Assembly (NCBI GenBank): GCA_024741835.1
Contig: JAENRP010000152.1
Coordinates: 1-64,000, forward strand
Origin: Diplocarpon mali
Lineage: Eukaryota > Ascomycota > Leotiomycetes > Helotiales > Drepanopezizaceae
Reading direction: 5' to 3'
Length of the DNA stretch: 64,000 nucleotides
Below are positions 1 through 63,698 of the stretch, piece after piece. The position numbers and the translations under genes are program-made. The first letter of the stretch is position 1. Each line of letters begins with the position of its first letter. The notes below the pieces were generated by a model. The model was not told the DNA's origin. It saw only the letters and a list, made by a program, of their open reading frames with translations, and ran no database searches.

Positions 1-423
1 TAAGACCGGACTCTTCTAATATTAATAGTAAACTATTAAGAAGAAGTAGGCGCTTTATAAAGAGAGTATTATCTAATAATAGTTCTCCCTATCCTTTAAA
101 GAGAACTAAGGAAAATTAATATTTAGGTTAGTACTATTTTTAATTGTTTTTGCAACTCTATAGCTTGTTTATTTGTTTTGCTAATTTCGTTTTCTAACTC
201 CTAGGCCTGGCCTATAGGTGAAAAGTGTATAAAAAAAAAAAAAACTCTTTTTTTTTTCCTTTTACCTTTAATAATAATATAGCCCTAGTTTAGGCCTTTT
301 AATATATTAGTTTTCTCGCACTTAGGGTTTGATAGTAATTGATATACTATTGCCTTGACCTATATTGTTTTATATTCTTTACTAATAGTAGTAAGGGCTA
401 CTACTTTTATTATTTAGGATATA
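1..423. other. AT-rich sequence, no gene
   Basis: No open frame or recognisable domain. It has an A run (231-244) followed at once by a T run (248-257), which could form a hairpin. One copy of the 23-bp dispersed palindrome lies at 197-219. The rest looks like RIP-decayed repeat sequence of unknown family. Confidence 0.5.
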
Positions 424-668
424 TATAAAGACCTAAGATAGATAGGTCTTATAATATATATTATATAATCGGCGCAGGCCGGTAGGAGGATAAAAGGGCC
501 ACCTTCTGTATATAGAGATAGTGCGTATTGCTATAGTACTGAATATACCCTATACTTAGGACTTGTCCCTAATATCTTATTTAAGAGAGCCCGCTTGTGG
601 TGCTTCCTCCTCTTGTTTTTAGGTCTTCCCTTAGGCCTATTCTTGTGTTGTCTCCCCTCTGTTTTATA
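424..668 (+). repeat. LTR-A copy 1 (LTR-like repeat)
   Basis: About 245 bp that matches, after transitions, the reverse complement of 8140-8378 and 32776-33039. In the orientation starting TGTGGAGACC (least-decayed copy) it has a TATA-like GGATAAAAGGG about 70 bp in, as an LTR promoter would, so here it reads on the plus strand. The Gypsy frame beside it is on the minus strand, so this copy is inverted relative to what a 3' LTR of that element should be. Edges are approximate. Confidence 0.6.
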
Positions 669-1429
669 TTATTTATTATTTAAGGAAAGTAATAGGAATA
701 CTATAATTAAAGGCTAATATTAAGAATGTAAAATAAGTTAAAGTAGGCAAGAATTTAAAGTGATCTTAAAAGATCCATATCTTAAATAATAAAGGAGGCG
801 ACCTTGCTAAAAATGTAAAAACAAGGATTAGAGGAAGGTAGGATAATTAATAGGTTAGGAAATCGTTTAGTATTCTTATCTACATTCCTCGGATATTTTA
901 AGAATAATAACTTAAGGTTGCGATTAATTAGGTATTTTAATATTCTTTACTTATAAGACCGGCTTATAGGTTAAGTTAGAAAAATCTTAGTCTTTGTCTA
1001 AGGGTTTAAAATTACTTATATTGCTATCAGTTCTTATAGAAGATTCAAAGGTTGTATTAATTTCTGATTCGTCTTTTAAAGGGAATAAGGTCTAATTGCA
1101 TCGATAAAAGCGCTTTAATTAGTTAATTGTAAAGGTTCCTTTAATATTAATTCTATTAAGTTCCTAAAGAGAATAATATCCCTTTTCTTTCTGCTTGGAT
1201 TTAACCCTAAATAGGCTAAGCTATTAATAGTTAAGTTTAATATCTGCTAATATATTAATACTTCTTATAACGTTATAAATTAGGATGAGATTATCTTTTC
1301 GAATAGGGTGCGATTTAAGTACTTTAGAAGCAGCCTATGCTTCCTTAGCTTTTTCCTGATATTATTTCTTTTATAAAATGATTTCCTTTATATCTATATC
1401 TTAGAGCTTAAGTTATTAGCATCTTATTA

Positions 1430-2330
1430 CTAGTAAATTGGAACGGTTTTGAATTTAACTATAGTCGAACAATCTTTAAATAGGCTATTAGGATTTAAAA
1501 GGGAGCTATGCCTCTCTGCTATAAATAAGGAAAAATAGTATAACTCTAGTCGGTTTATAGATTATCATTCGATAAGTAAAGAGTATTTTATAAAAGTGTT
1601 TTATTTAATTCTTAAATCCTCTATAGGTAACTTTAGATAGCCTATTAAGAATATCGCAATATCCTTGCTCTATTACTCTATTAGCTTTTGAATTATATGC
1701 TAAGATTTAAACCCGTTTAATATTATATTTTTACGAAAAAGCTTTAATTACTCCTTTATTTTTAAGGCCTCTATTAATAGTTAGTCTATTAAAAAGTCTA
1801 TAGTAATAGACCACGTCTTCTTAAAGGAACTTCGCAATAGATTCAGAGTTAGCAGATCTTAAAGGTCGTCCTTTAAGCTATCCTAATAGGTCTTCCTTTA
1901 CTAAAATAAAACATATAATCCTATTTTCGATTATTAATACTTATATAATATTAAGACTAACTTTATAAAAAAGGCCTAATGGCTAGGTTAGGAATAAGGG
2001 ATTCTCTTTATAACTAGGTTTTCATTTCTAATAAGGGATACAACTTTTTATAAAGGCTTTGCAATCCTTAAAAGAACCCTTTCAAAAGAATTTCCTTAAG
2101 AGTCGGTAGTAAATAGACTTAGCTCCTTAGTGGCCAGTTTTCTTATAAATATCCTAGATAACCTTAGCCCTTAGTTTTTCGTCGTCCAAGTAGAGTTATA
2201 TAAGGAATAAGTTATCACTCCTTTTAAATAATCGTCTTTCTTATATTAGATAAATCAAAGCTTTAGCTTTGAATTTTTAAAAATCCTTAAGAGCAATTAT
2301 CTTTAATTATCTAAGCGTGATTAAAAATTT
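1430..2330 (-). pseudogene. Gypsy-1 integrase remnant
   Basis: Minus-strand translation keeps recognisable integrase-core pieces of a common fungal Gypsy polyprotein: NKGVIKAFSQKYNIKRV, then a stretch corresponding to A-Y-N-x-K-A-N-x-x-I-E in the catalytic core, then RLSKVTYRGFKNQ. The N-terminal zinc-binding region lies toward 2330. Many stops; non-functional. It lies downstream (lower coordinates) of the RNase H remnant, which is the Gypsy order. Confidence 0.65.
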
Positions 2331-2479
2331 CGCGATTTCTTTAAAATCACCTAAGTAGTTAGGTAATAAAATTCTCTTATTTAACTCGTAGGCCAGGCTT
2401 GCAAGTCGAGTCCCTTTAAGGCAATATATTAATAGATAACTAACTTTATTCTCTACCTACTTATTAATATCTATTTCGT

Positions 2480-4020
2480 CTTCTTTAATCAAATTAGAAG
2501 GATAGGGACGAGTTCTTCTTAAAAGGCTATCGGCGGCAGTGTTTTTCATCCCTAGAATATATTTAACTTCAAAGTCCATTAGTCTTATCTAAGTAATCCA
2601 TTTTATTAGCAAGGCTCTTAATAGGTTGCTTGCAGCTCTATTCAATTATTCTACTAGCACTTTAGCATTAATTTCAAAGATGAAGTAAGTACTATAGAAG
2701 TCGCTTCTTATCTTTTTTATTACTTTTAAGGCTCTTTTACATTCCTATTTAATAGTATTATACTTTATCTTTATTAGATTTTAAAGACTACTTTTAAAGT
2801 GAGCTAGATGTCTTTTCTATTAGCTATTAGCTTATTAAAGGATAGTACCCTATCTAATTAAGCTTGTATTAACTATTAGTATAATTGGCCTAGTATCAGC
2901 TCTATAGTCTATTTTAATTAGATATGGCGCTTTAAGTAATACTTGCTTCAGTTGTTTTATAACTTCTATTTAAGGTTCCTCCTATTGAAACTCAGCCCCT
3001 TTTTAAAATAAGGCATAAATAGGTACTGCCTTTTTAGCGAAATCCTTAATCTAAATGCGATAATATACTATAATGCTAATAAACGCGCGAGCTTTTGCCA
3101 TATTATTATACCTCTTCTATTTGTCGATTTTAAGTACTTTAGCCCTCTAAGGACTTCGGCCATTGGAATTAGTAATAAAACTAATAATTTCTATCGATAG
3201 AAGATAGTATTATAACTTCGGACCAACTGTTGCTCTTACCCTTTTAAATTGTATAAGTACCTAATCTAGGTTTTGAATATATTCTATTATAAATCATTAT
3301 ATACTAAGAAGAACTTCTTTATAATTATAAAATGATCTTAATCTTTTTACTTTTATATTATCTATATAAAGGAGCGCAATATTAGGTATATAATCTACTA
3401 GTATCTTATAGATTACTTAAATAAATTGAGCGATCGAATTTATAGCCCCTTAAGGTAATCTTATTATCTAAAGTAGCCTAAGAGGGGTTTGAATTGCTAT
3501 TATATCTCTCGATTTAATATTAAGAATAAATTGGTTATATTTAAAGAAGAAGTTAATAAGAGAGCTATAGGTTAATCCTATAAATTCATTTAAGAACTTA
3601 TCTATATTCGGAGGAACGTTAGTATCTCTAACTATTACTCGGTTTATCTCTACTACTATTATTATTAGTTTATAAGTTCCTTTCTCTTTCTTAGTAACTA
3701 AGAACCATTTATTCCTATAAAGGCTATTATAGAACTCGAGAATACCTTACTTTAGCTTATCCTTTAATATTTTAATTACCTTTTCTTAAAGAGCTTTAAG
3801 GACCTTGAATGTTTTCTCTTACTAGGCTTTATAAGGTATTATCTTAATTTTAATATAAAGCGTGACCTCTTTTCAAATCTAGCCAAGTTCCGTCTAGTTA
3901 AAAGCTAAGGCGTCCTTTCGATTTATTAAGGTTTTATAAAGTAATTTGCATTCTTATTCTATTAAGTCATCTCTAATTTTCAGTATATTAAAACGTTCTT
4001 TTATTAGCTAATATCCGATA
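2480..4020 (-). pseudogene. Gypsy-1 reverse transcriptase and RNase H remnant
   Basis: Minus-strand frame contains PPNIDKFLNEFIGLTYSSLI and SRDIIAIQTPLRLL, then GAINSIAQFI and ALLYIDNIKVK; the last is the decayed RT active-site box (ancestral Y-I-D-D). SIEIISFITNSNGRSP follows. The RNase H end reads KYILGMKNTAADSLLRR near 2500-2570, the typical A-D-x-L-S-R terminus. Multiple stops from G-to-A change. Assignment is firm from motif order; function is lost. Confidence 0.8.
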
Positions 4021-4599
4021 AGTTTATTAAAAAATCTACTTATAATAAACTTATCGAATTTGCTACCTAGCTTTAGAGGTCGAAGCTTCTTATCTTATTT
4101 AAACTAATCATCTAGTCCTTTAAGCTTTAAGCCGTTAGAGATTCCCTAATCTATCAATTATACTTTATCGGCCTTACTTTTATATATAGTCCAAATATTA
4201 GCTAGTATTATACTTCTCTACTTCTTTCCTTTTTTATCAAATCTTATAAAGCGGTTTGAATTTTCCTTTTTAAAAATAAATAAAAGATTTTCTAAATCGT
4301 TAATTTAAAGTGTATAGATAGAAATATTATTAGTAATTTTATTATTTTTCACTTATAGGTCTAGCCTATAAGTGGTTTTTAGGTTTTTTAAAATAATTAG
4401 TAAACTATCGAAATTTGTAAAACGAACCCTCTTTTCTACTTTATTTTTCTTTTTTCTTAATTGTTAATCTAATAAAATGCCGATTATACTATTTTTCAAA
4501 ATTCCAGATTTAACTCTTAGTCTAAGACTGCGAGTCAAATTACTATTATTTAAAATCGATAAACTTACCTTTCTTTTACTATAACTCTTCGCTAAGTGC

Positions 4600-7330
4600 C
4601 TTCCTTTATTAGCATTAAGCCTAGCCCTTATATTAGCTAGTCGTTTCTTAAAACCTTATTTTAGAATTCGGCTATATCTCTTGTAATAATCATTTATCCT
4701 TTTAAGGATCGATCTATATTTTAAAGGCTAGCTTTTATAAGCCTATCTCTAAGATAGTTAAATATTAGTTGAGATTTTAAAATAAAGGGCATTTTTAAAA
4801 GAATATCATTTGAAGAATTCTCTATTATTAAAAAGTTAATATAATTAACAATTCCTTTAACTCTAACCTTTATATTTTTCACCTTTTTATTAAAATTGTA
4901 TTTTAATCCAGAGATAGTCGAATAAATAAAGAGTCAATCGCTAACGATTATCAATTAAGCTATTTCTGCCACTTTTCTAATTATTGTATTAACTTCTAAA
5001 CTATAATCGATTAGAGCTTTTGCTTTAATTGATTCTTTTATAAAACAAATAATAATAGGGCTTTTTATTACAATTGCTAAACAATTTCGATTAATATTCT
5101 AAGATATTAAAGCTATTACTATAATATTATAGTACCTTTAGGTTCCTTTATCTTTTATAATTTAAAGATATTTAATTAAGGCTAAGTGCTTCTTAAAGTT
5201 CTTTTATATTACAATTTCCATTTCCTTATTATTATTCAAATCTTTAAAGGCAATTAGGATATGCTTTCCTAGCACTTTATTAAAGCGTCTAATCAAATTA
5301 AATAGGTCTTTGAATATAAGGTTAATTTGCTAAGCTATAATATTCTTTATAGCTTTCTCTATTACAGTTGAACTAGCGTATTTGTCGACGAATTTCTCCT
5401 ATTTTAATATCTATCTCTTTTGCTTAAGGTTAAGGGTTTATATAATAACTTCGACTTCTTAATCTTTAAGCTTAAAGCTATCTTTATCTATTATATCTTT
5501 AATCAATTCGTCTGCTATATCGGCTTTATCCTTATCTATTGCAGTTTTAGATTATTAAATGTCTTTTAGCGTTTGGACTCTATATTAAGATTCCTAAGTT
5601 GCACGCATTGATTTCTAGACTTTGGCTGGTTTTATTAGTATTAAAGGAGTAGTAAATCTAGAAGGACGACGAGTATTCCGAGGGTTTTTAAATACAGAAG
5701 TAGCATTAATATTAGTAGATATATTATTATTAACCCACTTTAAAATAGAGATTCCTCTGACTTTAGTAGCAGTCTAGTTCGAAGTTTGGTTAGTAAGCAC
5801 TCCCTTAGGTAGATTGCTAGCTAGACCTATATATATATAAGTTAGGACCTTAGAGTTGATTTCGATAATACGCTTCCATTTAGCCAAATCCTTATCCCAC
5901 TTTATACTATATATTATTATTTAAATAGTCTATAGCTATAAACAATTCTAGTGTTTTTTAATAGGAATAGCGTTTAATCTAAGATCTTTAATACAAAGCA
6001 TCCTATACTTATTAATATATATAACCTTAGTATTAATAAAACGAAGGAAAAGAGGACAATCGTTGCAGTACTTATATAAAGCGCAGTTAGGTTCTTTATT
6101 ATTGCAAAAGTTGCAGGTTAATTGTCTTCTATTGCCGTTTCCTTAGTACTCTATAGTATTAATATTAGTAGAATGCTAATTAGGATCAATTCCTCCTTCT
6201 TTAACCAATTATTATATTCTTATATTAGCTGGTTATTCCGAATGATAAGAAGTAGGAGTCTGGTAATAGGAATTACTAAGTTAGCTTATAATAGCTGAGT
6301 TTTATCTATTATTAAACTAAGGAATATGCTATTTTTCCTATAAGAGATTATTAATTCTAATTTCTAAGCTCTAGATTCGGAGTTCTGCAAATTGGGTCTT
6401 AAGTTCTTTAATTCTAAGGTTGGATTTTACTCTTAGGTCAGGCCTATAAGTGAAAGGTATGACTATTAGGTTCTTCTTTACCTTCTCTATAACTTCTAAA
6501 GCTTTTAAGTATTCTTAGACCAGATTCTTAAGGTCTTTAATATAAGAGGGAGTAGGGGCTTTTTCTTACTCTATAGTATTAATAGTTCTTTTACTAAGAT
6601 CTGATTTTAAAGCAAAGGCTAAGAATTCCTTAAATAAGGCAAAGGTTATAAGGTCTTATTTATTAATCCTAAAATGCTTAATGATCTTATTTCAAAGGCT
6701 AATAGGTAATCTAAGTAAGAAAAGGCGGCCTCTTTCAACTTCGCTAAGTATTTTCTAGCTAATTAAGGTATTCGATATATAAGTAAAAGTCCGATAGTAG
6801 TTCTTAAGTTCCTTAGGAGTATAAGTAACTAGAATAAATTCCTTTAAGAAAGCTAAAGTATCGCGAATCTGCTATTTATCAAATTCGCAGAATTCAGATT
6901 TAAAGGCCTTAATAAGGAGTTCTTATAAACTATAAGTTTTCTATTTAAAGAAGGACTTGATAATATCCTTACTTATATAATTATAATAGCAAGGAAGTTG
7001 AGAAATCATATCCTCTTATATAATACCAAAATCATAATAAGTTTCCTCATATTACTTAAGAAAATTAGTAATATTAGCGCTTATAAAGTAAGGAGCGCTA
7101 AGAGAACTAGGGAGGGGAAAGTGATTAGTAATAGCCTTAAATGCAGCTATTATCGTTTTATACTAACTGTCTAAGTTAATAGAATCTATAAAGGGCAAAG
7201 GGAAAGCTTTGATATTATAAGATTAATTGCTAAAAGGAGTACTTCGAAATTCAAAAGGGCTTAAAGAGCGTTTAGAATCCAAGTCAATCTTAAAGTGATT
7301 AGGACGAGTTTGAAAAGATTCAAATAAAGG
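4600..7330 (-). pseudogene. Gypsy-1 gag and protease remnant
   Basis: A long decayed minus-strand frame. Near 6055-6130 it has a Cys-rich box read as CNFCNNKEPNCALYKYCNDC, likely a gag nucleocapsid-like zinc binder. Toward 4990-5025 it reads ALIDYSLEVNTI, matching the retroviral-type aspartic protease signature (D-S-G-A-E-V-N). Palindrome units at 6429 and 4513 are read in frame here as T-Y-R-P-D-L-R-V and T-R-S-L-R-L-R-V. Exact gag start not determinable. Confidence 0.6.
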
Positions 7331-8139
7331 ATTAATGAAAAGTTTAAAATTATTATTATTATTAGTATTTTTAAGCGTTAATATTAAAAAAGTAGGTAGC
7401 AGTCTTAAGTTGTTTAAGGATATCTTTTTATCTTCCTATTTATAGGCTAGGCCTAAGAGTAGAATTCCGGATTCTGCTAAAAGTTTAATCCGAGTTTGCT
7501 AAGAGATTCTAAGTAAGTACTAAATAGCTAATAGGAGCGTTGCAACTAATTGTAATAAGATAAGGTTTACCTAATTAAGGACCAATTTCTAAGATAAGGT
7601 TTATATCTAAGATTCTTCTTAGCCTCTAGGCTAATTCCTATTAGTCCTTAAAATAAAGGGGTCTCTAAAGACGATTCTAAGGCAATTTTTAGAGTTCTAT
7701 CTAACCGAGGCGGCTGAATTATCAGATTCGGATTTCTAAGGATTCCGAAGAAATACTTCTAATTAGAGTTTGCGCTTAGTATTACTTAAGTACTCGAAAC
7801 CACTGCTATTAGAGATTGCTATTATAGGGTTCGCCAAACTTTTTATACTAAGAAGCCGAAAATTCCGAAAATCTCAGAGTTAAGGAAGAAAATAAGGGGT
7901 TTTCAAAGCAGAGCCGAAAAGGGAAAATTTAAGGTTATTAATAGTTACTAAACGAAAATCGATAGTTCTAAGTAACTAGGCGATTAAGGATAAGGGTTTT
8001 AGAGTTAATCAAAATGCTATAAGTATTTCGAAGACGTATTTCAAAGGCCGGTCTCTTATCTGCGAACTAAGAGATTAATAAGATTATATAAGGACGGAAA
8101 TCTTAAGAAATCGGTCCCTGCGTAAGTCACTAATATAAA

Positions 8140-8439: not shown

Positions 8440-11395
8440 ATATAAACTCTACTTAATCTATACTATATAAAGTATAAAGGAAAGTAAGAGCCGCAGATCC
8501 TAGGATAGCTATAACTTTTAAAGAAACTCAGCTTTTTAATTTCCTACTTAATAGCCTCTCTCCTAAGTTCGCTATTATAAAATAATCTCTTCTTATCTAA
8601 CCTAACCTTAAGATCTATAAGAAGATCGACCTCCTTCGAATTATAAAGCAAGACCTCGAAGGACGCTTTAAATCGGCAAATGCTATATTATAAGGTAACA
8701 ATAAGCCTAAGAAGAGAAAGGAGCGTAAGACGAGTCCTTAAGCTTATTAAAGATACTACTTCTATAATAGTGCTTATAATATTACTAATTATAAAGTTAA
8801 AAGGCATTTAATTAATATAGTTATTAGTTTTAATATTAAAAAGCAATTAAAGCAAAAGTTAAAAAGCAAACTGCCCTTATCTTACCAAAGGCTATAACTA
8901 TTAAAGAAAGGCAAAGAAAAAGGCTATTTAGCCAAAACTTTAATAGATACCTTTAATAATAATAATAGGTTATCTAAACTTAAATCCACTTTTAATAATT
9001 TAAATAATAATGATAATAAAGATGCTTACGTCTTAAAAGCCAATTTTTATAAGATCTTTAAATCCGACTAGTATAATAATACTAGTTATATAATATATAT
9101 AACTAATAAACCCTACCTATTTAAAGGCCCGCTTATTAAAATAAAAAGGCGCTTTATTAAAGTTAGTAGTAGAAGGTTATATACAAATTTGATAAGTATA
9201 ATAGAGATAAATATTATTAGCGTTTCTTTCCTTTTATAAAATGTTCTCCTTATACCTAGCTTAAGTATTAATCTTTTATCTAACTATAAGATCTATATAA
9301 AGTTAAATTGTATAAGAGTTTTTAATAATTAATTTATATAATTTATAAATAATAATTATAAAGTGATCTTTAAACCTAAAATCAAAAATGGACTTTATAT
9401 TATCTTAAAGGTAATATTATAGAAATTGACTCTTAGGCTAAACTTATAAGTAGGTTCCTTTAAGGAAAGTGCACTTTCCGCCCCAATACAATTAAGCAAA
9501 AAGAAGAAGAATAGATAGACTTTAAAGCTAAGATTGTAAGTGAAATTTAAAAAATAACTCTTAAGCTAAGATTATAAGTAGATTATAAAGTATCTTTAAA
9601 GATAACTCTTAAGCTAGGACTATAAGTAAGTTTAATAGAAATAACTCTTAAGCTAAGCTTGCAAGTAGATTTTATAGATTTACTAATAATAACTTTTAAG
9701 CTAAGATCGCAAGTGAAATTCGCGAAAATAACTCTTAAGCTAGGACTGTAAGTAGATCTTGCCATTTTTAGGAAATCGACTCCTAAGCTAGGATTGTAAG
9801 TGGATCTTGCGGTTTTATTAAAAACGACTCTTAAGCTAGGCTTATAATTAAAAAATAGTAAAACCTGAAACTGCTATTACTATTCCTTTTTAGCCGCTGA
9901 TAATAAAGTATCGACTAATAATAGGCTATTAAAGCTATTAGAAGTTAAAAGCCTATTAAGGTATTAGCTAATATATAAAAGATTCGCATATCTAAGGCTA
10001 AAGAAATTAAAGGGCCTATATAAGGTCTTAACTTTAAAATAGAAGATTTAAGTACTAAAAAATCGCTTAAAATACCGAATTTGCAAGCTAATAAAACTTC
10101 GAAATCGAATGTAAACTAAGCTTAATTTATAGAAAGATTCAATATTAGCGCTAATATCTATAAATACTATTAAACCATTTATAATCTTAATTAAAGGAAA
10201 TAATTAGTTTTCTTAAATAGTAGATAACTCTATTTAATAGATATGGACTATTTACGCTAAGACTAAATCTAAGCTTATAAAAAAGCTAGAAATTTAAAAA
10301 GTAATAAAGGAATGCTAAACTTAATCAAAGCTAATAGCTATTAGGTCTAATAATATATTAGAGATTAGGGCAAAGCTTAATAAATAAGTAAAATAAGGAG
10401 TTTATTATAAACTAATTATAATATATAAAGGTTCCTATTAAAATAGCATTACTAAGCGAAGCATTTACCAAGTAAAGATTGACTATCGCGCTTTACTATA
10501 AAATGCTAACTTACTATTAGAATTCTAAGACCTTGCGATTAAGGCAAACGTATACTTATAAAATAGAATAGGTAATAGACTAATAGTTAATAGTACCTAA
10601 ATATCGCTATATAAGGTATATTTTAAATAGAAACTAAGCCTAGGCTATATCTGCGTCTTTAAAAGCGTCTATTACTCTTATATTAGCTTAAAGTCCTAGC
10701 CTGCGAGTATAAAGAGTAAGAAGCTAATAGACTAAGGTAGAGAGTATATATTTATTAAGTATATTAAATAGATAATAAAGCAATAGATAGTATATGCGCT
10801 AGATCTAAAGTAAATAATTATATCTTTAATAGTTAAGTTTAATAAATCTTAAAATAGGAAGGAGCTATTCTTAAAGCTTTATATACTTAAAGATTCGCAA
10901 GGTATACTACTTAATAGTAATACTATTAAGCCGAATTAATAACCCCTTTCTCTTAACTTAAGTATATTAAGCGCATCTGCTAATTGACGATTTACTAATC
11001 GCCTAAAGGCCAAATAGACTATTCCTATTGTTTGCGAACTGCCTTAAGTATAAAATAACTTTAATATTATTATCCTTTTAATTAAAGTACCTATAATAAA
11101 GGATATTCTTAAAATAGGTAAGAGTAATAATAAGCCTTTACTATTAAAAAGCGGTTCTTTAAATAATAAGCCTATGGAACCTATAGTTGAACCTACGCCT
11201 TTAAAGAGAAATAGAGACTTAGAATTAAAAGATAACTTAAATAAACGCAAGTCTAAGTATATCTAAGCTATAATAGCGTATAAGATCTATAAGCTTAAAC
11301 TTTAATAGAGCTTTAATAAAGATAATGCGTTCTTAACTGCTAAAAGGATAATGAAAATCTCTCTTTTAAAGACGTATAATAAAGCTATTAATAAC
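8440..11395 (+). pseudogene. Copia-1 gag, protease and integrase remnant (copy 1)
   Basis: Plus-strand decayed polyprotein. In order: a CCHC nucleocapsid-type knuckle near 8750-8800 (clearer in copy 2 at about 20995); a Copia-type protease region; the palindrome array at 9429-9849; an integrase zinc-finger region; an integrase core near 10200-10600; and near 10610-10790 the Copia integrase C-terminal box, read as KLSLGYIRVFKSVYYSYI followed by SKKLIDQGREYIFIKYI, as in K-P-S-L-S-H-L-R-V-F-G-C. Stops fall at expected Gln/Trp. RT and RNase H continue after the Gypsy-2 insertion. Confidence 0.75.
9429..9849 (+). repeat. Array of nine 23-bp in-frame palindromes
   Basis: Units start at 9429, 9519, 9557, 9605, 9644, 9692, 9731, 9779 and 9827. 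Each is an RIP-decayed version of ACTC-N3-GGCC-N-GGCC-N4-AGT. Steps are 90, 38, 48, 39, 48, 39, 48, 48. The 38 is 39 in copy 2, so it is probably a 1-nt deletion. In the polyprotein frame each unit reads about T-L-K-L-G-L-Q-V. The array lies between protease and integrase. Copy 2 has ten units (21670-22139). Confidence 0.85.
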
Positions 11396-11687: not shown

Positions 11688-12329
11688 TTATTAATAACTC
11701 TTTCACTTTGCTAGAGATAGTATTATAATATCTATTTATATTATTCCTAGTAGTTGACCGAAACCTTAACGAGTATAATAATATATTAAAAGACTTATAT
11801 TAAGCTCTTACTATAAGCTTAAAGAATGGTTCTCCCTATTACTAGGTCTTTAAAGACCCTTTGCTCTCTCTCCCTTTAAGGAGGTGCTAGTATCACTCCT
11901 AGTACCTTTCTTGCCAACTCCTTACTAGCTGACGATAATAGCCTTAAAGTCATTATATTATAAGCTGAATTAGACTTCTTATAAGTATGCCTTACGTCTA
12001 TATTAGAAGAATATAATAAGTATAACTATAAGCTGAATTTTATATATTAATAATTGATTAATTAAGAAAGAGATCTAGATAACCTTTAAAGTGCCTTTAA
12101 AGGTATCCTAAGATCAATTGAGAAAACCCTAGTATTAAAATGAAACCCCTCTAATTCACTTATGTGCCTTTAGTGCTCTATAGACTTCGACCTACCTCCT
12201 TTTGTTTCCTTTGCTATATATAGTAAGCGATGCGATAATTAAGATAATCCTTCTTTTGCTTCCCTTAATTAATATACTACTAATTCGCCCTTGGCTTAGT
12301 AGCTAAACCTCTTTTATATCTATAATATA

Positions 12330-17455: not shown

Positions 17456-17458
17456 AAG

Positions 17459-50929: not shown

Positions 50930-52520
50930 TCGAGTATAATATAGTAAACTACTATATTATCGACGAAGTCATTTAAGCTAATAAGACCTCCCCTAAGCTA
51001 TAGAAGTTCTAAGATAAAGCGTAGAACTATAGCCTCGATTACAAACTTAGCTAAGGTAAACTCTTCTTCTAAGGTAGACTTATTATACTATCCTAACCTC
51101 CCGAACTGCGAACAGCCCTAATTTGTCATATATATAAGCAACCTTACGTCGCATACGCTAGAATCGGGAAAATAAGACTTCTAATAGGAAGAAAATACTA
51201 TTAGAAAAGCCTTAGTAGCAACGTTAGCATTTATATTTAAAACTATTATTATTCGAGAATAAAAGCTTATTATAATAAGACCCCTGGTTTCCTATAACCC
51301 TTGCTAATTCCCAAATAAGCTTATTAATACTTGATAATAGATTTTATAAAGCTCCCGCTTAATAAACTCGGTTATAATTTTACCCTTATAATTATCGATA
51401 GGTTATTAAAGAAGGCAGTTTCAATTCTATACTATAATTCGGTCGACGCAAAAGACCTTATAGAGTTATTTTTAATTCATTAGATACGCCATTTCGGCAT
51501 ACCTAACTTAATTCTATTAGATAGAAGCGCCCAATTCGTCTTTACCTTTTAAAAAGAGCTCTATTAAATACTAGGTATAAAGGTTAAGCTAACTATAGCC
51601 TATAACCCTAATGTTAATAGCTAAATTAAGATTATAAACCAGTACTTAAAACAACGCCTTAAGCTATTCTACTCGTACTATTAAGACAATTAAAGTCGTC
51701 TCTTGCCTCTGATAGATATTACCCAATTGACCTTACCTTACAAATCCCTAGGGCAAATTTCCCCTTTCCAAGTGCTAAACGGCTATAAGGCTCGCTCCTC
51801 TTGGAATTTAATTAACTTAAAGCCTCTATAGATAGCAACTAAGAGAGTAAATCGTAAAACAGCGCTCTATATAGCTACTAGAGCTTAAAAAGTAGTCCAA
51901 TTCGCCTAATCGTCTCTTTAAGCATAATAAATTAAAATAAAATAGCTTATAGATCTCTACTACCAGCTAATTAATTAAATTATAAAAGATGATATACTAA
52001 TTAGTATTAAGAATTGGAAACTGGACCGGCCGAGCCGAAAGCTCTCCGATAAGTAATACAGCCTAATAAAAGTACTAGAAAAGCTAGGAAAAAGCTAAAA
52101 GCTATAATTACCTGATTCGCTCCGTTCGATCTACCCTATTTTCCACTCGCACTTACTACGTAAATACATTCCTAACCCCTTGTTAGGACAAGTTCAAGAA
52201 CCTCCTATACTAATTAAAGTGCTACTAAAATAGGAGGAATAGGAGATAGAAGCAATAATTAGATCTTATATTTAAGCTCGAAAGCTTAAATATCAGATTA
52301 AGTAGAAAGGAGCTAATAAAGACCTCGAATAGTACCCGTGCTCTAACGCTATAATAGCGCCATATACTATTTAAGATTTCCATTTAAAAAACGTTTAAGC
52401 TAAAGGACTACTAAGGGCGCTATTAAGCTAGCTTAAGTCATATAATAATAGAGTTAAAAATTATAAGGACCTAAAGGATAATACGCCTATAGATACAACT
52501 GCGCGGGCGCAGTTTTTCAA
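50930..52520 (+). pseudogene. Gypsy-3 integrase with chromodomain remnant
   Basis: Integrase core: QYLIIDFIKLPLNKLGYNFT, LIIIDRLLKKAVSI, IRHFGIPNLILLDRSAQFVF, LGIKVKLTIAYNPNVNSQIK, LKLFYSYYQDN. Then the GPY/F-like module and a chromodomain-type C-terminus (52240-52420) ending QYPCSNAIIAPYTIQDFHLK and ARAQFFKGRG. Few stops compared with the rest. Confidence 0.82.
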
Positions 52521-52533
52521 AGGGAGAGGGTAG

Positions 52534-52785
52534 TATTATAGCCGCATTACGTATACGGTTATATCACGTATCGGTTAAGTGCATAAAGTCAAGTGCACAC
52601 TAAGGTAGCAAGGTGGCTGGATCATGTGCACGCTAGTAAAGCACCTGTACTTATTCTGGAGGAGCTCTATTAGAGGCTCTCTCTCCTTTATCTTTTCTTC
52701 TTAATTATATAGCGTACCTCTTGAGGTAATACAGTCAGCGTCATTCAATTCTCGCCTTCTGTACGCTCGAGAGCAAGTCGTAACA
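52534..52785 (+). repeat. Gypsy-3 3' LTR
   Basis: 252 bp, preceded by a purine tract (AAAGGGAGAGGGTAG). Ends GAGCAAGTCGTAACA. Confidence 0.92.
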
Positions 52786-52790
52786 TTAGA

Positions 52791-52866
52791 CCTATAGAAT
52801 ATACCTTTTATATTACTTCTTATTCCTATACTTAATCTTATACCTTAATAGTTTTATATTATTATA
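52791..52866 (+). repeat. LTR-E copy, right part
   Basis: Continues 45433-45663 after removal of Gypsy-3 and one TTAGA. Confidence 0.8.
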
Positions 52867-53230: not shown

Positions 53231-53480
53231 TGTAGCAAAGGAGGTTCTCTGATAGTGAACTTGATAGTAAACTAGAAGAGAGGGCACGAAGAAGTATAAG
53301 GTGCAAACGACGATGTTGGGTGTCTTAATTCATAAGAGCTCTCTAACTAGGAGCTATTTAAGGTAAGCGGCCTTCTTAGTGAAGGCGCTAAGTCATATAG
53401 CAAGTTATATGACATATTATATATATAATATATCATATGACAGATCATATAACAAATATATAATAGGCATACCTGCAACA
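53231..53480 (-). repeat. Copia-2 3' LTR (copy 2)
   Basis: 250 bp, TGTAGCAAAGGAGG to ACCTGCAACA in plus-strand reading; more RIP-mutated than the 5' LTR of this element, as in copy 1. Confidence 0.9.
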
Positions 53481-53657
53481 CACCCCTTTAAGGAGACCTT
53501 TAAAGGTACTTGCTAGTAATATATATGATATTATAACTTTTATTATAGTTTATAGTTTCGTATAGAAAATCAACTTGCAGATATGGGAAATAGAGTAGAG
53601 TTCGCTAGCACGCTCTACTCTAGAGTAGGAAATCCACCCCTTAGTAAGTCAAAATCA

Positions 53658-53770
53658 ACTCGCAGGCCTAGCCCGGGAGTAAAAAAAAATCACCCCTTAA
53701 TAGAAGTGTAAAAAAAATCACCTTATAATAGAGGTATAAAAAAAAATTACCCTTTAATCGAGGTGCAGAA
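53658..53770 (-). repeat. 3'-end palindrome and short repeats of Copia-2 (copy 2)
   Basis: Palindrome at 53658-53680 (ACTCGCAGGCC then TAGCCCGGGAGT) and three AAAAAATCACCYTT-type units to 53770, mirroring 29640-29748. Confidence 0.75.
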
Positions 53771-55557
53771 CCTTCATATTTAATAATTTGATAAAGGCGG
53801 CGTAGTTGGAGCTATTTAAGCTCTTAATAAGGCCGTTAGTAGCGTTGTCTTTAGTATTCGTATACTAGAGGTCCAAATGGCCTTTCTAAAGCTCTTACCG
53901 AATATAATAGAACTTGATATTAATATACTTCGTTCTCTAATAATATTCGGGGTTTTTAATAAGATAAAGGGCTCCTTAGTTATTATAGATCATCTCGACT
54001 TTAATAGCGTCGTCGCTGGCATAGCCTATTTCCTTAAGTACCTGGCGTATCTAAGAGGCTTCTTATACAAATTTGCATATAGTAATATACTCTACCTTTA
54101 TAGATAAGAGAGCGATAATAGTTTATCACTTAAAGGAGGTAGTAATTACGCTATTATTAAAGAAGAAGACGGCCCTAAAATAGGAGACTTTAGTTCCTCT
54201 ATCACCTACCTAATTAGAATCGCAGTAGCTATGCAATTTCTAAAGCTTTAAGTCAGTTGTTTTACTTTTAAAGGTAGTATAAAAGAATCGCATTCCTTAC
54301 AAGTATTATAAAACTCGTTTTAAAGCTACTATATATTATAGCAAAGGGTTAATAAGGAATTTGCTAAGAATAGAGCAGTAGTATAGTATATCCTAATATA
54401 TATAATGCGCAAGGTACTATAGAGAACTACAGATCTCCTAATATAGCTTCACTTCTTATAGAATAGCGCGGCCTTCAAATTTGACTATATAAACTTTATA
54501 GCTATTAGCAAAAGGCGTTAATACGCTTTTGCAATTAGTTATATAAAAACGTTTAAAAACCTTATTAATATAGGCATTTTAATAAAGTGAAATCGTTCTA
54601 TTTTATCGATCTTTGACTATATATACTCTTAAGAAGTAGTTAGCCAGTTCGCTACCTATAATCTTAAAAAGGTTGCAAAGATCTCTCTTAAACTTATTAT
54701 ATATATTACCTCTCTTAGCTACTATAAGGAAGTCGTCGATATAAGTAATAATAAGAATCCGAGAGGCGCGGTTAATATATATGCAATTATTAGTATTAAA
54801 AGGTTGAAAATCGAGCTTTTATAGCTCAGACCGTAGCTTTTCTTACTATAGTCATAGAGATTGCTTTAAGCTATATAAGGCCTTAAGAAGCTTAAGATAG
54901 TAGTCTTAAGGTAAAAGAACGACCTTATCTTAAGTATATCTAAGAGGTAACTTAATATAAATATTAAAGTCAGCTTTTAAATTAAGGAAAGCTATCTTAA
55001 TATTAAACTGATCTAGCTCAAAGTCGTATAGTACTACTAGCGCAATTGCAATCTTCTAAACTGCAGATTTGCAAACTTTAGCAAATATCTAATTGTAATC
55101 TCAACCTTATTATTATATATAGCCTTATATAATAAATCTGACCTTCTATTAGGAGATTTCCCTATTTTAGTCTCTTTTAGTTTTAAAGACGAGTCTTAAT
55201 CTAAGTACTTTATTATCTTTAGAGAGTTTTAAGTATTTTACTACTACCTATATATTCTTATAAGCAAGGGAATTATACTTAAAGTTGATCGCAGATCGCT
55301 ATTTATCAGTATTAGTATAAGAGAGGGCTTATTCAACTGTTTTCAGGTCATTTAGGTATAGAGAGTCGAGTAAGGCCATATAGAAGGCGCCTAAATAGGC
55401 TTCCTTATTATTAAAGTTATTAGCTTTAAATCTAAGAGTATAAGTTAAGCGAGTAGCTCTCTTCTTAAAAGGCTAAGGGTAAGCATTATTCTTTAAACCA
55501 AGAGGTCTTCCTCTCTTTCTTAGAGTTAGAAGCTCAGCTTCTCCTAAATCAGAATTG

Positions 55558-55670
55558 ACTTGCGGTCCCGGTTTAAGAGTAAAATCGTAAAAGTCAGAAT
55601 TGACTCGCGGTCCTAGACTAGGAGTGAAAATATCATTTTAAAAAGTGACTCGCAGGCCTGGCCTAAGAGT
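55558..55670 (-). repeat. Three palindromes at 45-bp steps (Copia-2 copy 2 linker)
   Basis: Units at 55558, 55603, 55648. Copy 1 has the same three at 48-bp steps. Confidence 0.87.
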
Positions 55671-57060
55671 GAAATCACCCTTTAATTGCAGCTCTATAAT
55701 TAGGCCGTCTTTATTAAATCAAATGTAAGATAATTGAATAATCTTATTACCTATTTGCGATAGTATATAGATCTAATAGATACTTCTACTATCAAATCCG
55801 ATAAGAGTACTTACCTTTGCTTTTAAAGCGAGTTTATTACTTTAAGTTCGCTTTTCTTTCTCAATTAGTATATAGACGTAATAGCCTAATACTCGAAGAT
55901 GCTTAACTAAGGGAGTATAAGGCTTATTAAGCTCAATATTATCCTAAAAGACCTTATATAGAGTCTTGCTACTTAGAATATTAAAGGCGGTAAGATTGGT
56001 AATATATATTACCGAAAGAAGGAGATAAGGCCAGAGAAAGGAGGGGATATTTTAATTAATTATAGCTATTTGCAACTTTTCTATTAGTATACGAATTAAT
56101 TATTCCAATCTGCTATCTTATTCTAGTATATATAAAGTAGATTCTTTTAAAATTATACTAAGGTTTTCTATAAGTATTTGCATTTATATAAGAGAGTACT
56201 CCTTGCCTCTATCAGTTCTCTACCGCTTGATTATGCGATTATACTAAGTTTATAAAAGGCTGATCATCTTTTTATTTGCCTTAAAGGCATTAGATTTATT
56301 TATATAAGTCTATCCCTATCTAGCTATTATAGCTGCGCAAGTAAAGATAGAAGCGTATTTATAGCTATTAAGGCTAGTTAGCTTTAAATAAACCACATCG
56401 ATATATAGCTTATCAAGTGCCTTCGTAGGTTAAGGGCGAGCTAAACGTTTATTAATATATTAAAGAGGTCTGCCTTTCTTATAAGGAGCGCAGATTCGCG
56501 TCTTCCTTAATTTTATTTCCTTAATCTATATATTAATAATAGCAGATTGGGTCTTTCTGACTATTTATAAGCTAGCGTAGCCTAATCGATAGTACTAAAG
56601 CTTAATATTAAGAGGTCTATTCTTAATTGCAGCTAAGAGAGCATATCTACTTATATAATTAGAGGAGTTAGTAAAAGGCTATTCCTTATTAATATATATA
56701 TTATTATCGATAGTATAAATTTCCTTTTTATTAGATAAGAATAGCTTGCTATTTCGATAGAAGCCTTTAATTTTATTAAGTTTGCTACTTAAGTATAAGT
56801 AGATAGGTAATTAAAGTATATAAAGAGTATTAATTAACTTAAGAATATATACCTTTCTATTAGATTTAAGTGTATTGACTTTATAAGTGCTAATACCGAG
56901 AGGTTAAATAGATCTATTAACTATACTTAAAGAGGGTAGATTATCTTAAGTAGTATAAGAAGTGAACTTAGAAAGATTATTAGAGATATACTCACTAGCA
57001 CCTATATTATATAACTAACGATTCCTCAATTTTAATAAGAAGCAGGAGGTAGAAGAACTA

Positions 57061-57137
57061 ACTCTTAATCCCGGCCTGCGAGTGGAAATTGGCCTTAGAG
57101 AGGAGTCGGAATTAAGTCCTAGGCCCGGCTCGCGAAT
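57061..57137 (-). repeat. Two palindromes before the Copia-2 protease (copy 2)
   Basis: Units at 57061-57083 and 57115-57137 (54-bp step, 18 codons), each followed by AATTGGCC. Copy 1 has a single unit here. Confidence 0.82.
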
Positions 57138-58563
57138 GAGAATTGGCCCTAGGGTTAGTAATAGCATAGTATGCCTAAAGAGGTCATTATCTGACTCTTT
57201 ATCTTCCTTCTGAATCTTCCTAAAAGGCTTTTGCCTTTTAGTAATAATAATAGCAAAGATTTATCGTCCTTACCTTTAAAGTGACGAAATACGTACTTCT
57301 TCCCTAAATCCTTCTCCTAGGCCTCTCTTTTCGATTTATTAATTGCAAAGCAATCTTCTACCTTATAATATAGCTCTAGTTGCTTGCAATAAGGACAGGG
57401 GGAGTTAGGAGAGTTGGTAGTATTCCTAAAGGTACTCTTTATTAAGTCTTTAAAACCTCCCTTGTTTTCTGACTTCTTATTAGAAGAGTGCGGCTTACCA
57501 GCCGATTTATTACTATATAAGACAGTTCCGTTTATCTTTAAACTCTATAAGGCTCGAGCTTTATTAGTAATATCTTTAATAAGAGCTTTAAGCGTGATTT
57601 CTGATTTTCGTCCAGCTGCTATAGCTAAGCGAAGGTTAGAGCGTTATCGATCTACTTAAATAGGCCATCTATTGGAATAGCTAGCAATAAATATAATAGG
57701 ATACTAGTAAGAGGGAGGGGCAAAGTCGAAAGCTTCTAATTTAGTGATTGAAAGCCTAAAGGCGACGATATAAGCTTCGAGTGAATTGAAGTTATTATAT
57801 TTAATAGTAATATAGGTCTATATAGCGTTATATTCAAGCACTATTCCAGATCCTTTATACTATTTTTAAAAAGCTTCCTATATATCTAAGGCAGATTTAT
57901 CGCCTTCTATATAAGCTAATAGGCCTAGTTTACAATTAAGTATAATAGTAAGCTTCATCTAAGATTCCTTAGCTTCCTATCTAATCCAATTATCCCTTTC
58001 CTTAAGAGTAATAGAACAGTCCTATAAGTCAACCTTAGGTAGAGTATATATTCTAGCTTTTATATAAAGATATATAGTTAAAGCGTTTAACTTTGCAAGG
58101 TTCAAAACCTTATTCCTCTACTAGCTATAATCCTCTACGCCTTTAAGCTTTTAAGACTCAAGGAGGCTAAGGGCAGCCGAAGATAATAACAATATCTTAT
58201 TTATATATATATATATAGAGTTATCGAAAGGAGGAGAAGGAGGAAGAGGAGGAGATGAACTATTAAATTCGAGTTTAGGGTACTATATATCAGTCCCTTT
58301 AAAATTAGGTAATTCAAGCAGTAGAGTACTTTCAGCAATTAAGCTAATAATCTTAGCTATCAATCCTAATAATTCAACTATAGTGACGAATCTTGCGTAA
58401 GCTTGGATTATTGCATAGCACTCCGAAAGGGGAGTAGCCACTATTTTATTATTGAAATAACGCTATCATACGTCATTGGTTAAGTAAAACTCAAAATATC
58501 GATCAGCCTTTTCGTTTGTAAGAGAGACTCTAATCGATGGAATTTATCGAATGCTATTCATAA

Positions 58564-58582
58564 GCATACGGGGCTCATAACC
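58564..58582 (-). other. Copia-2 primer-binding site (copy 2)
   Basis: Same 19 bases as at 24856-24874, unmutated, directly inside the 5' LTR. Confidence 0.75.
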
Positions 58583-58832
58583 TATAGCAAAGGAGGTTCT
58601 CTAATAGTAATCTTAATAGTAAACTAGAAGAGAGGGCACAAAGAAGTATGAGGTGCAAACGACGATGTTAGGTGTCTTAATTCATAAGAGCTCTCTAACT
58701 AGGAGCTATTTAAGGTAAGCGGCCTTCTTAGTAAAGGCGCTAAGTCATATGGCAAGTCATATGACATATCATATGTATAATATGTCATATGACAGATCAT
58801 ATGACAAATATGTGACAGGCATACCTGCAACA
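58583..58832 (-). repeat. Copia-2 5' LTR (copy 2)
   Basis: 250 bp; keeps CATATGACATATCATATG palindromes that correspond to the CACATGA boxes of copy 1. Confidence 0.9.
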
Positions 58833-59889: not shown

Positions 59890-62800
59890 CTATAGGTTTA
59901 TCATTACCTATTTCATTATAATCATCTATACTATTAGTATAGGCCTATATCTAATCAGGTAGCCTTGCAGGCAGGCCTAGGAGGTCTGGATTTTCTAAAT
60001 GAAATTCGCAAAGCTTAAATAGCGTATATATGAAATTAGAAGCTAGGTACTATTTTAAATCAATATCGCGGCTAACCTATAAGGCGCGGTATATAAGCGT
60101 ACCAGCTTGCTTTTATATAGTAAGCAGGCTCTTTACTTTATATTCTTATTTTCTTATAATATTGATAGTAGGAAGGGGTTTAGTCACTTAACTATCTAAA
60201 GGAATACTAGGGTCCCTTCGGAGGCGACTTAGGTAGAAGATATTATATACCTTTATAAAGTTAAGTAGCTTCAATTAATATAAATTAAATACTTTCTCTA
60301 CTATCTCAAATAGGCCAGCTCTAGGGTAGTTAAGCTTTTTAAAAGGCCTATCTATAAGGTAGGGACGTATATTTAAGTATACTTAATCGCCGACTTCGAA
60401 AGTAGTAAGGCGGCAAGAGGTATTAGTAGCGTTTCGCATGCGTTCCTAGGCCTTAAGGATATAAGATTTAGCAAGGGTCTAAGCTCTATAATATCTTGCG
60501 GAGTACTTAAGGGCGTCTTATCGATTAAGTTTCTAAGAAGGGGACTCCGAATTAGGTATATTAAGCTTCTAGTCCTAATTAATACGCAAAGCGTACTTAT
60601 ATACTACCTCGAATGGCGATAAGCTATTAAGGGAGTTATAGGAGAGAGTTAGCTAGGCGAAATCTATTATAGGTAAGAATTCGCTCTAATCGTCTTAATA
60701 GTAGCTAATAAAAGGGTAGAAGCGTTGCGTAAGGTACTAATTATAGTTTTCAGTTTAGCTATCGGTTTAAAGGTAGTAGGCTAAGCCGAGGGTCAGTTTT
60801 ATACTTAAAACAGAGGTAAAAGCTTTCTAAAAGCTAGAAATGAATTAAAGGCCCTAGTCTAAGGTGATTATTAAAGGGGGACTAAAGTAGTAATATATAT
60901 AGTATATATAGAGTTAGGCTAGCTAGCGTAAATCGGTGGCCTTTTAGCAAGGAATCGATATCGCCTGCTTACTAAATCGGTCGATAATTATAAGAACGTT
61001 ATTATAACTATATTTATCTTTATTAAAACTTATAAAATTTATAGTTATATACTCCTAAGGTCGGCTTAGTACTAGAAGGGGTTAGTGTAACGACACAGAA
61101 CCGCCGAAGTGCGAGATCAAGTATAGGAGCAAGAAGTGGTGCAAAAGGCGTATTCTATAGGTCTAATACGAAGGAAACGAAGAAGTTAGGGAGCCCTCCT
61201 TAGGGGAGAGCCCTTCTTCCTTATATACATAAGCAGCTCAAGGCTCTTTGTCCATTTACGTGATATTATGCAAGAATATCCTTTTGCACCTTCAGGGTCG
61301 ATTCGAAAAAACCCTACATCGAATCGAGATTGCGAAACCTTAAAACGCCGTACTCCCAGGTAATTGCACTAAGTGGAAGTGCAGCCATTACAGTTAGAGT
61401 AGACTAGGTTTCTTATTATAAGGGACTTTGCTTCGTCTGTAAGTATAGCAGTTTTTATAATACTATATAATGTACCGGCGTAGGTTCGGCTAATAATACT
61501 ATAAGGAAAGGAGCTGGTAGGTTTTGCGTGCGCTAAGGTGCGCAGTAGCAATTTGATTATAGACCTCTTATATAAGTAGCATATAGAGGTGATCTATATC
61601 TAGTACTACTAGCTTACTTTAGTAAAGAAGCAAATCTCCTTCTATTGTCCAAGGACTAGCCTTAGTTGGTGCTATACTAGCTATATTACAAAGGGCTGCC
61701 TAACGATAAACCTAATAAGGCTTATATTATCGATTAGCGGCTAGTATTTAATCGATAATGCGAAAAGCAAAGGAGAAGGTCGAGATTTCTTCGATTAAGA
61801 CTAGGTTCTTAGCTATAGTCTGTTTATAAAGCTCTTTAAAGATAATACAAGGGTTAATCTAATCCTGGCGTAATAACGTTATAAGTCGGTTATTATATTT
61901 TATTATATTTTAATCTTCTAATTTGTTAATATAGCAAGTTAGGGCGTTGGCAAGGGGATTTTGCAAGCTAGGGTAGTAGGTAATTATAAAGTTATATTTA
62001 AAGAGAAGCTCGGCCCAGCGGGCCTATTGAGAACTAAGGTTTTTCATAGTTATAAAGTACTTAAGCGCTTTATAGTCCGTATATACTATGATTTAGTAGG
62101 GAGCTCTAGTAAGCTTAGCTTTAAAATAGCCAAAAGATCGAATAATAGCTAGCATTTCCTTATTGTATATAGTATAGTTAAGTTCTGCTAGTACTATGGT
62201 TTTACTATAGTAGGCAACCGGGAGCTATTCGGACCTATATCGCTGCGATAATACAAAGGCAACTATACTATCGGAGGCATTAGTTTCTAGCAAATAAGGG
62301 AGATCTTACCTATAATGCTAAAGGATTAGTGTATACATTAAAGCTTCTCGCAGCTATAGGAAGCTCTGCTCGCATTCGGGGGTAAACCAGAAGGGAATAT
62401 TATTCTTAATAAGGTATACTAAGGGGGCAGTAATAAGACTATAATCTCGAATGAAACGTTGATAAAAATTATAAAAACCAAGAAATAATTAAATACCCTT
62501 GATAGTAGAGGAGTAGGTCCAATTCTCTACTACTACTACTTTATCAGGGTCAACCTAAACGCCTTTGGTAGTAATTATAAAGCCAAGGTACTTAGTCTTT
62601 ATAATATTAAATTCGCACTTCTTTAAGTCGGCTTAAAGTCCTATATCTGACAATTGCTAAAGTACTTATAATATATGCGATTTATACCTAAGTCAGTTAA
62701 TAGAGTAGATTAGGATATTGTTTAAGTAGGCTATATAAAAATCATTAAGGTAATCGAAAAGAATATTATTCATATACCTTTAATAGGTAGCAGGGCTATT

Positions 62801-62971
62801 AGTAAAGCTAAAAGAGAGCACCTTACACTTATACGCGCTATACCGAGTTCTAAAGGTTATAAGCTCTTTAGAATCAGGGTGTATTCGGATCCGGTAGAAG
62901 GCCTGCTGTATATTAAGCTTTATAAAAATCTAGGTACCAGCTAATTAAGCTAGGGTCTTATTGATTAAGGG
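59890..62971 (-). pseudogene. Gypsy-2 integrase, RNase H and RT remnant (copy 2)
   Basis: Reverse complement carries the chromodomain-type C-terminus (59900-60120), integrase (60150-61060 and 61393-61650), RNase H (about 61920-62330) and RT (to 62971), parallel to 14670-17450. Stops at Trp/Gln positions differ from copy 1 in places, so mutation was independent. Confidence 0.82.
61086..61392 (-). repeat. Solo LTR-E with target duplication
   Basis: 307 bp, TGTAACGACACAGAACC to AGCCATTACA in plus reading, flanked by GTTAG on both sides (61081-61085 and 61393-61397). Inside Gypsy-2 integrase. Lightly mutated. Confidence 0.92.
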
Positions 62972-63698
62972 TATTGAGCTTAAGTGAGTCGGCGCAGTAG
63001 GTAAAGGAGGCTTCTAGAGGTCGATAATCGATATATTAATAAGAGTTAGGGAAGGAAGGTTACCCCTTTCTTCCCTATAGCTATATATATATTAATATCT
63101 TATTGATTAAGCAGTAGGGTTATATGATAATATATTAGAGTAATAGCTATATTATTTATCTTAATACCCTTACTTAGACCTTACTCTGATTAACCTGCAA
63201 TTGGGAAAATAATAACTATCCTTTTGTGCTAATCCAACTCCTAGGTATCTTTTTAAATTAAAAATAATTAATTAATAGCAACCTCTATTAAAATCACTAA
63301 CCTTACTTATAAGGTAGGACTAAGAGTCAAATTTCTTAAAAGCGTTCTTTTATAAGACTATATGACTTAACTTGCAGTCTAGGCCTAGGAGTTGATTTAA
63401 AAACTTTCCTTTATAAGACTATATAACCTAACTCGCAGGGCAGGCCTAGGAGTCGTCCTTAAGCTTGCTAAGCCCCTATTATCTTTTGCAACCTTAGTAT
63501 ATTTTTAAACGCTTTGAACTTTGTAACTATCTTTAATAGCTTTGTAAATCCATCTGCTACTATTCGATTAGTTAGGATATAGGTGATCAATAACTTGTTC
63601 TTTATAATAAGGTCGCAGATAAAGTAGTAGGTAATATCGATATATTTCGATCGCTTATATAAGTGTAGATTCTTTATAAGTATAATCGCCCTTATATT
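62972..63698 (-). mobile_element. Copia-1 3' end, reverse
   Basis: LTR 62972-63166, 68-bp untranslated block, three palindrome units (63305, 63370, 63431; steps 65 and 61), then RNase H end to 63698 where a Copia-2 LTR piece starts. It truncates Gypsy-2. Confidence 0.88.
63468..63698 (-). pseudogene. Copia-1 RNase H end (reverse copy)
   Basis: A 79-codon stop-free stretch begins at 63707 and reads NLHLYKRSKYIDITYYFICD, then NRIVADGFTKLLKIVTKFKA, keeping the Copia A-D-x-x-T-K motif that is decayed in the other copies. Confidence 0.82.

Follow-up and report, generated by a model that had tools for sequence, protein, structure and literature searches.

A 35-bp palindromic unit shared by several LTR-retrotransposon families of Diplocarpon mali: a candidate micro-element of one ancestor

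How does one short palindrome come to stand in retrotransposons that are otherwise unalike? The question is raised by a 64,000-nucleotide stretch of the genome of the apple-blotch fungus Diplocarpon mali (assembly GCA_024741835.1, contig JAENRP010000152.1, positions 1 to 64,000 of the forward strand; hereafter the window). An earlier look at the letters alone, the sequence-only reading, had reported about 50 copies of a 23-bp palindrome in four unrelated retrotransposon families, most of them in one reading frame, and had likened them to the palindromic elements of Rickettsia. The explanation that we favor, with a probability of roughly 0.55, is a DNA-level micro-element that descends from one ancestor and was copied in both orientations into several families of long terminal repeat (LTR) retrotransposons. 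The sequence of the units, their orientations, and their sites can be read directly from the DNA, and copying from one element to another is what we infer from them.

Units were sought with the pattern ACTC-N3-GGCC-N-GGCC-N4-AGT at no more than three mismatches on both strands, with 100 dinucleotide shuffles as the control. This strict search gave 56 both-strand matches at 33 positions of the window, against a mean of 0.43 and a maximum of 3 in the shuffles. Under a relaxed criterion (up to seven changes with one at most outside C-to-T and G-to-A, or up to five with two at most outside these), the window holds 43 units, for which the earlier figure was slightly high, and all examined sequence holds 172, against 2 in a backward-read control. 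Besides the window, the examined sequence consists of loci, here given L-numbers, that were mostly picked because units are present in them. Across the 49.4-Mb genome, the same pattern matched exactly 415 times forward and 428 times in reverse, with 0 matches for the reversed pattern, and the symmetric form has 2,263 sites at two or fewer mismatches, again with 0 for the reversed pattern. With controls this nearly empty, the enrichment stands, and the positions 197, 2384, 26314, 27772, 57061, and 63431 had all been placed correctly. There is next to no chance that the pattern is a product of coincidence or faulty assembly. We found no point in favor of this, and the controls returned 0 to 3 matches. 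The GTDB contig collection contained no exact match to the unit, and the only IMG/VR contig to match has a GC content of about 70%; we take this match as chance and reject a spread of the unit beyond the fungal genome. An Rfam scan of the window at gathering cut-offs also returned no match.

The hosts are Copia-1, Copia-2, Gypsy-1, Gypsy-2, and an unclassified element I, with about 21 sites among them. When the window's 43 units are assigned by approximate element edges, 21 lie in Copia-2, 11 in Copia-1, five each in Gypsy-1 and Gypsy-2, and one in the element I part; all units mapped in the window fall within repeats, and the 15-kb stretch from 31747 to 46899 has none. Unit density by the GC content of 500-bp bins, in loci mostly picked for their units, was 0.71/kb below 36% GC, then 0.52 and 0.41, and 0.11 at 48% or above. 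Domain neighbors were placed by Pfam where possible and otherwise by sequence motifs. Copia-1 has the Pfam domains Retrotran_gag_2 and RVT_2, and the L020 copy of Gypsy-1 has the aspartyl protease PF13975. The name Copia-2 and the reverse transcriptase (RT) piece of Gypsy-1 are our assumptions from such motifs, without a firm Pfam match (for Copia-2, a Pol_BBD match at E = 0.01 is below the cut-off), and no Pfam match names the class of element I. Units that can be placed lie in the linkers between gag and protease, integrase and RT, protease and RT, and RNaseH and integrase, after the Copia-2 protease, in 3' untranslated regions (UTRs), and in an LTR. The LTR unit belongs to Gypsy-2 (site H), where it is seen in two copies 6.6 kb apart in L021. 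Units stand at six or more sites of Gypsy-1, and the protease-RT interval holds two of these. Element I supplied seven of the sites used, spread over two relatives that have diverged; L012 and L006 show a decayed eighth place. The two relatives lie in succession in L006 (900-4000 and 4400-7700) and carry seven units there.

These placements bear directly on the origin of the unit. Common descent of the elements fails as an explanation, as had been argued from the letters, with the same unit in two superfamilies that differ in the linker where it stands. One homologous linker domain in all hosts is likewise ruled out by units in several different linkers and in non-coding DNA, and we reject a single shared linker domain also in view of relatives of two host elements that are without the unit at the matching linker. 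For example, Gypsy-3 contains 0 units in 9,116 bases (the 11700-17465 region plus 59622-62971), and a protein-level alignment of the RNaseH-integrase linker shows extra residues in Gypsy-2 at the unit, versus Gypsy-3. At site B of Copia-1, the unit peptide is present in 0 of 3 relatives (two JGI-source proteins and one from Podosphaera); the integrase end is common to all three, and a basic stretch to the two JGI proteins. Among six further loci from the copia RT list, five are without a unit at five or fewer mismatches and the sixth is Copia-1 itself. A search with the gag part of Copia-1 returned a single protein, from D. coronariae, which ends before the unit. An O-fucosyltransferase reading frame on another contig of the assembly (L009) has 100% identity to a protein of D. 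coronariae, very probably the same fungus.

With one unit taken per site, the consensus core over 21 sites is ACTCSYRGGCCNGGCCYRSGAGT, with the dyad arms RAWTYN on the left and NRAWTY on the right. The whole unit is thus a 35-bp dyad, RAWTYN-core-NRAWTY, around a 23-bp core, and the earlier length of only 23 bp was too short: at the second base beyond either end of the core, a left-hand pyrimidine or right-hand purine stands in 42 of 42 cases, where shifted positions give 15-31. Copies differ from one another mostly by C/T or G/A. Among exact genome units, 246 are asymmetric, with C at positions 5 and 19 (139 on one strand and 107 on the other), many of them copies of a few host sites, versus 13 symmetric units with G and C at these positions and 1 with C and G. 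Because C at both positions is asymmetric, it marks the orientation of a unit, and both orientations are present, even among the open reading frames (ORFs) of one element (Copia-1 sites A and B). The asymmetry of 246 versus 14 points to one asymmetric ancestor copied both ways; an independent origin of a symmetric site would not give it. No exact half-unit without its partner was found in the examined loci. Nine left-flank bases, GGTGATTTG, are common to the Gypsy-1 unit L020:7929 and the Copia-1 unit L028:2355 besides the unit itself, and these may be a copied flank or a chance match.

A symmetric DNA motif also brings to mind a protein-binding site. The 35-bp dyad would be recognized by a dimeric DNA-binding protein, whether from the host or from the elements, and retrotransposons would have fared better with arrays of the dyad through expression, escape from silencing, or chromatin position. 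Comparable binding-site arrays occur in other retroelements. The reach of the dyad symmetry beyond the core and the regular spacing of the arrays would fit such a site, as would the constancy of particular bases: T fills core position 3, which phase 0 makes a free third codon position, in every one of the 21 sites, and the base at positions 15 and 21 is unchanged in 18 of 21. We nevertheless consider selection for binding rather unlikely as the whole explanation. Dozens of gains of so long a site by point mutation are implausible, a symmetric site does not explain the asymmetry of 246 versus 14, and other LTR families of this genome manage without the unit. Binding may, however, be a function that exists alongside copying.

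Conservation of the units gives a divided answer to the same question. Over pooled single-unit sites, with the arrays E, J, and B left out, the deficit of transversions per base is slight (0.0120 in units versus 0.0165 in flanks), which speaks against binding-site selection, and transitions are slightly commoner in units (0.151 versus 0.125 in flanks). Element I speaks in its favor. There, 13 comparisons (L015 and L013 against L006) contain 2 unit transversions, against 14.7 in random 23-base flank windows. Counted by copy, unit transversions are 1/138 in L015 and 1/161 in L013, versus about 5% in flanks, and 0/46 in both L012 (0.1 expected) and L005 (2.1 expected). Sets of random windows were as low in 27 of 20000 draws for L015 and L013 together and in 532 of 20000 for L015 alone, figures that are not probabilities, given that the copies are related. 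Some constraint or homogenizing of the units is likely from these comparisons. A further point for a binding site is that elements I and I', with 56% DNA identity over 1.3 kb, have one unit site in common. Six units were also folded, and their z-scores ran from +1.08 down to -4.02 for DNA and from -0.35 down to -3.36 for RNA. A DNA or RNA hairpin as the selected form is unconvincing, with positions 5 and 19 mismatched in most units.

Many units lie in coding linkers, and what is kept there could be the peptide instead of the DNA. Phase 0 gives the longest open stretch over the unit in 155 of the 172 units, and in 108 of 115 where that stretch has at least 60 amino acids, so that the single reading frame claimed earlier holds as a tendency. 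This excess is weaker than it appears because phase 1 contains the unit's own TAG when YR is TA, and the frame is not fixed. The unit at 2384 had been described as a lone exception, but in 8 of 8 loci, the window copy included, phase 2 gives the longest open stretch at this Gypsy-1 site, and a second Gypsy-1 unit (L020:5004) is in phase 2 of a 108-amino-acid open stretch. Both phase-2 stretches are only predicted as translated, with no Pfam match above the cut-off. Array steps are better evidence of frame than the phase count. Of 72 steps, 65 are multiples of 3, and the seven exceptions (61, 62, and 65 bp) are all in the Copia-2 3' UTR array, which has 66-bp steps too. The commonest steps are 39, 45, 48, and 54 bp, or 13-18 residues. 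If the linker peptide T-P-G-P-G-P-R-V were selected and the DNA palindrome a by-product, both the phase-0 count and the frame kept in arrays would be accounted for. However, this idea is largely refuted and has very little probability left: units stand in the 3' UTR and the LTR as well, the two orientations encode different peptides, and the free third position T3 is constant. The Gypsy-1 site open in phase 2 in all eight loci means that the peptide is not the conserved thing.

Within families, the units are kept. Of 95 non-self rows aligned to 23 site queries, 94 still show a match resembling the unit, in 87 cases at five or fewer mismatches to the degenerate core, and the sole row without a unit is an array contraction. 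At the Gypsy-1 site of 2384, all 40 scored matches (of 259 candidates) span nearly the whole query at 88-100% identity, and the unit was read in 8. Alignments that cross the junctions numbered 564, of which 113 have no inserted bases near the junction; those inspected were array contractions or register shifts. A weak match of L005:1449 to window positions 13545-13619 is also among the junction-crossing alignments without inserted bases. When units were clustered by their 60-bp flanks, array flanks drew 65 of the 124 together, and sites were consequently set by hand. Array copy number differs by one step between copies of an element. Such variation, together with the nesting of elements within one another, is what an ordinary minisatellite would show if gene conversion or ectopic recombination had carried it from one nested element to another. 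We regard this as improbable. Conversion tracts should bring longer flanks, and flanks compared by site logo show that the pattern common to the units stops about 6 bp beyond the core; many sites, moreover, have a single unit.

The course of events that we propose is as follows. One asymmetric 35-bp near-palindrome would be the ancestor of all units, and copies of it, in one orientation or the other, would have entered several of the fungus's LTR-retrotransposon families. Copies would survive where extra DNA is tolerated, in inter-domain linkers, 3' UTRs, and LTRs, and those in coding linkers could later grow in tandem by whole-codon steps. Every entry would be earlier than the spread of the host family, after which host transposition would have multiplied the units, and decay of the repeat-induced point mutation type would have eroded them last. 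Transfer between elements would most likely be by template switching in reverse transcription, when retroelement RNAs share a cell; we place this first because the hosts that can be classed are LTR retrotransposons. Less likely is the action in trans of a transposase or nuclease. A stronger version can be put forward only tentatively, namely that the unit is a gene-less 35-bp parasite of retrotransposons that moves among unrelated LTR families, has its form kept by a requirement of its own movement, and adds in-frame linker repeats to polyproteins.

Several observations weigh against a micro-element copied from one ancestor. The comparison of element copies with and without the unit that had been proposed from the letters produced no clean empty site in the examined loci. 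No target-site duplication was seen there, in linkers too diverged for exact boundaries, and with neither an empty site nor a duplication, insertion itself and the manner of spread are reached by inference only. The examined loci yielded neither an autonomous partner nor a transposase. Nor do all units have the asymmetric form: of 29 listed units, 19 are asymmetric and 5 symmetric (element I holds four of the latter), and another 5 cannot be classed through decay at positions 5 and 19. The site common to I and I' at such low identity suggests that some units are very old, and the transversion deficit of element I suggests constraint or homogenizing, unlike a simple dead insertion. A hairpin-driven mechanism is not favored either, since positions 5 and 19 do not pair and several units fold weakly as a result.

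The likeness to Rickettsia palindromic elements (RPEs) was apt. As described in the excerpts consulted, RPEs place one palindromic unit in frame in many unrelated coding sequences, in solvent-exposed regions and with sites shared by orthologues (PMC3767692, PMC10969869). The fungal units stand in frame in copia and gypsy linkers, where they would have been inserted. RPEs, however, are 100-150 bp long, form several families, and occupy cellular genes of bacteria (Rickettsiales), whereas the present unit is 35 bp long, nuclear in a fungus, borne by retrotransposons, and found in in-frame tandem arrays. Our best reading is consequently an RPE-like micro-element that is not a member of the RPEs. 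The arrays also resemble PARCEL, which the parts of the source available to us describe as dyad-symmetric coding DNA in variable tandem arrays, tied to mobile elements in some taxa (PMC2996958). According to the same parts, PARCEL encodes 25-residue amphipathic domains in many membrane-targeted ORFs of many clades; the repeat here has about 12 proline-rich residues, in pol and gag linkers, and is also non-coding. The GC clusters of yeast mitochondria (GC42) are, in the consulted portion of the source, short GC-rich palindromes held to be mobile and constrained in structure (PMC4478555). They are mitochondrial, 42 nt long, and targeted to AG with footprints at some sites, as far as that portion goes, whereas our unit is nuclear and no target duplication was seen. 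COX1, looked for in the assembly with a mitochondrial origin of the unit in mind, was not found. Short palindromic repeats of Volvox occur in both orientations, as our unit does, and this was taken as a sign of transposition in the part of the source seen (PMC2670323); they lie in organelle non-coding DNA, and the nuclear copies are said there to be inert transfers. Target-site duplications and empty sites, as expected of a miniature inverted-repeat transposable element or other DNA-transposon derivative, were not seen in the examined loci.

The main texts of the D. coronariae and D. rosae genome papers, in their accessible portions, do not contain the string "palindrom". Palindromic micro-elements as a kind are already known; a nuclear one within retrotransposons was not found in the literature searched, on palindromic repeats and fungal retrotransposons, to the extent that its texts were accessible. 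If our reading is true, this is a nuclear case in which selfish elements can host far smaller selfish sequences, and the units would be a countable trace of sequence exchange among retrotransposon families not thought to recombine. As sister species and several long-read isolates exist, dating and empty sites are within reach.

Table 1. Host elements, palindromic units, and the unit-free control in the window.
Feature	Coordinates	Strand	Basis
Unclassified element I part, unit 197-219 (site I-7)	1..515	+	aligns with L006 at 89%; L013 and L015 copies keep unit
Gypsy-1 copy, units 2384, 4351, 4513, 6429, 7438	2000..8130	-	aligned to L020 sites; edges approximate
Gypsy-1 unit in phase 2 of longest open stretch	2384..2406	.	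8/8 loci L033-L040
Copia-2 array after protease, units 9429, 9605, 9644, 9731, 9779, 9827	9429..9849	.	
Gypsy-3, Gypsy-2 homologue, no unit (control)	11700..17465	+	protein alignment across site F; edges approximate
Copia-2 3' UTR array, units 19324, 19385, 19450	19324..19472	.	after polyprotein end as read by eye in other copies
Copia-2 array, units 21670, 21760, 21847, 21886, 21973, 22021, 22069, 22117	21670..22139	.	
Copia-1 copy, LTRs 24618-24861 and 29917-30160	24618..30160	+	self comparison; RVT_2 28183-28896, E 7.7e-32
Copia-1 unit, gag-protease linker (site A)	26314..26336	.	
Copia-1 array in integrase-RT linker, three units spaced 48 bp (site B)	27724..27842	.	linker placed by homologues
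Copia-1 unit after polyprotein, before 3' LTR (site C)	29726..29748	.	
Copia-2 3' UTR units 31001, 31063	31001..31085	.	
Gypsy-2 copy, decayed LTR unit within 46955-47380	46900..52800	+	RVT_1 E 3.4e-7 in L010 copy; edges approximate
Gypsy-2 array in protease-RT linker, units spaced 45 bp (site E)	48832..48944	.	
Gypsy-2 unit pair 50809, 50854, RNaseH-integrase linker (site F)	50809..50876	.	
Second Copia-1 copy, LTRs 53233-53480 and 58585-58832; units 53658, 55558, 55603, 55648, 57061, 57115	53233..58832	-	
Copia-2 3' UTR units 63370, 63431	63370..63453	.	

The elements of the window (Table 1) are nested, and split self matches place a Gypsy-3 copy inside one Copia-2 copy (8377-19748) and a Copia-1 copy inside another (20618-31746). 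The end of the latter Copia-2 copy (31219-31746) is a 263-bp tandem pair with 91% identity, to which LTR-like copies at 19549 and 62972 are related. Beside Copia-1 unit C (29641-29725 and 53679-53765) is a tandem repeat of 28-29 bp with a T-rich run, the length of which varies between copies. Finally, positions 42106-44699 form a GC-rich island (58%) that contains pieces of a protein kinase gene and has AT-rich repeats around it.

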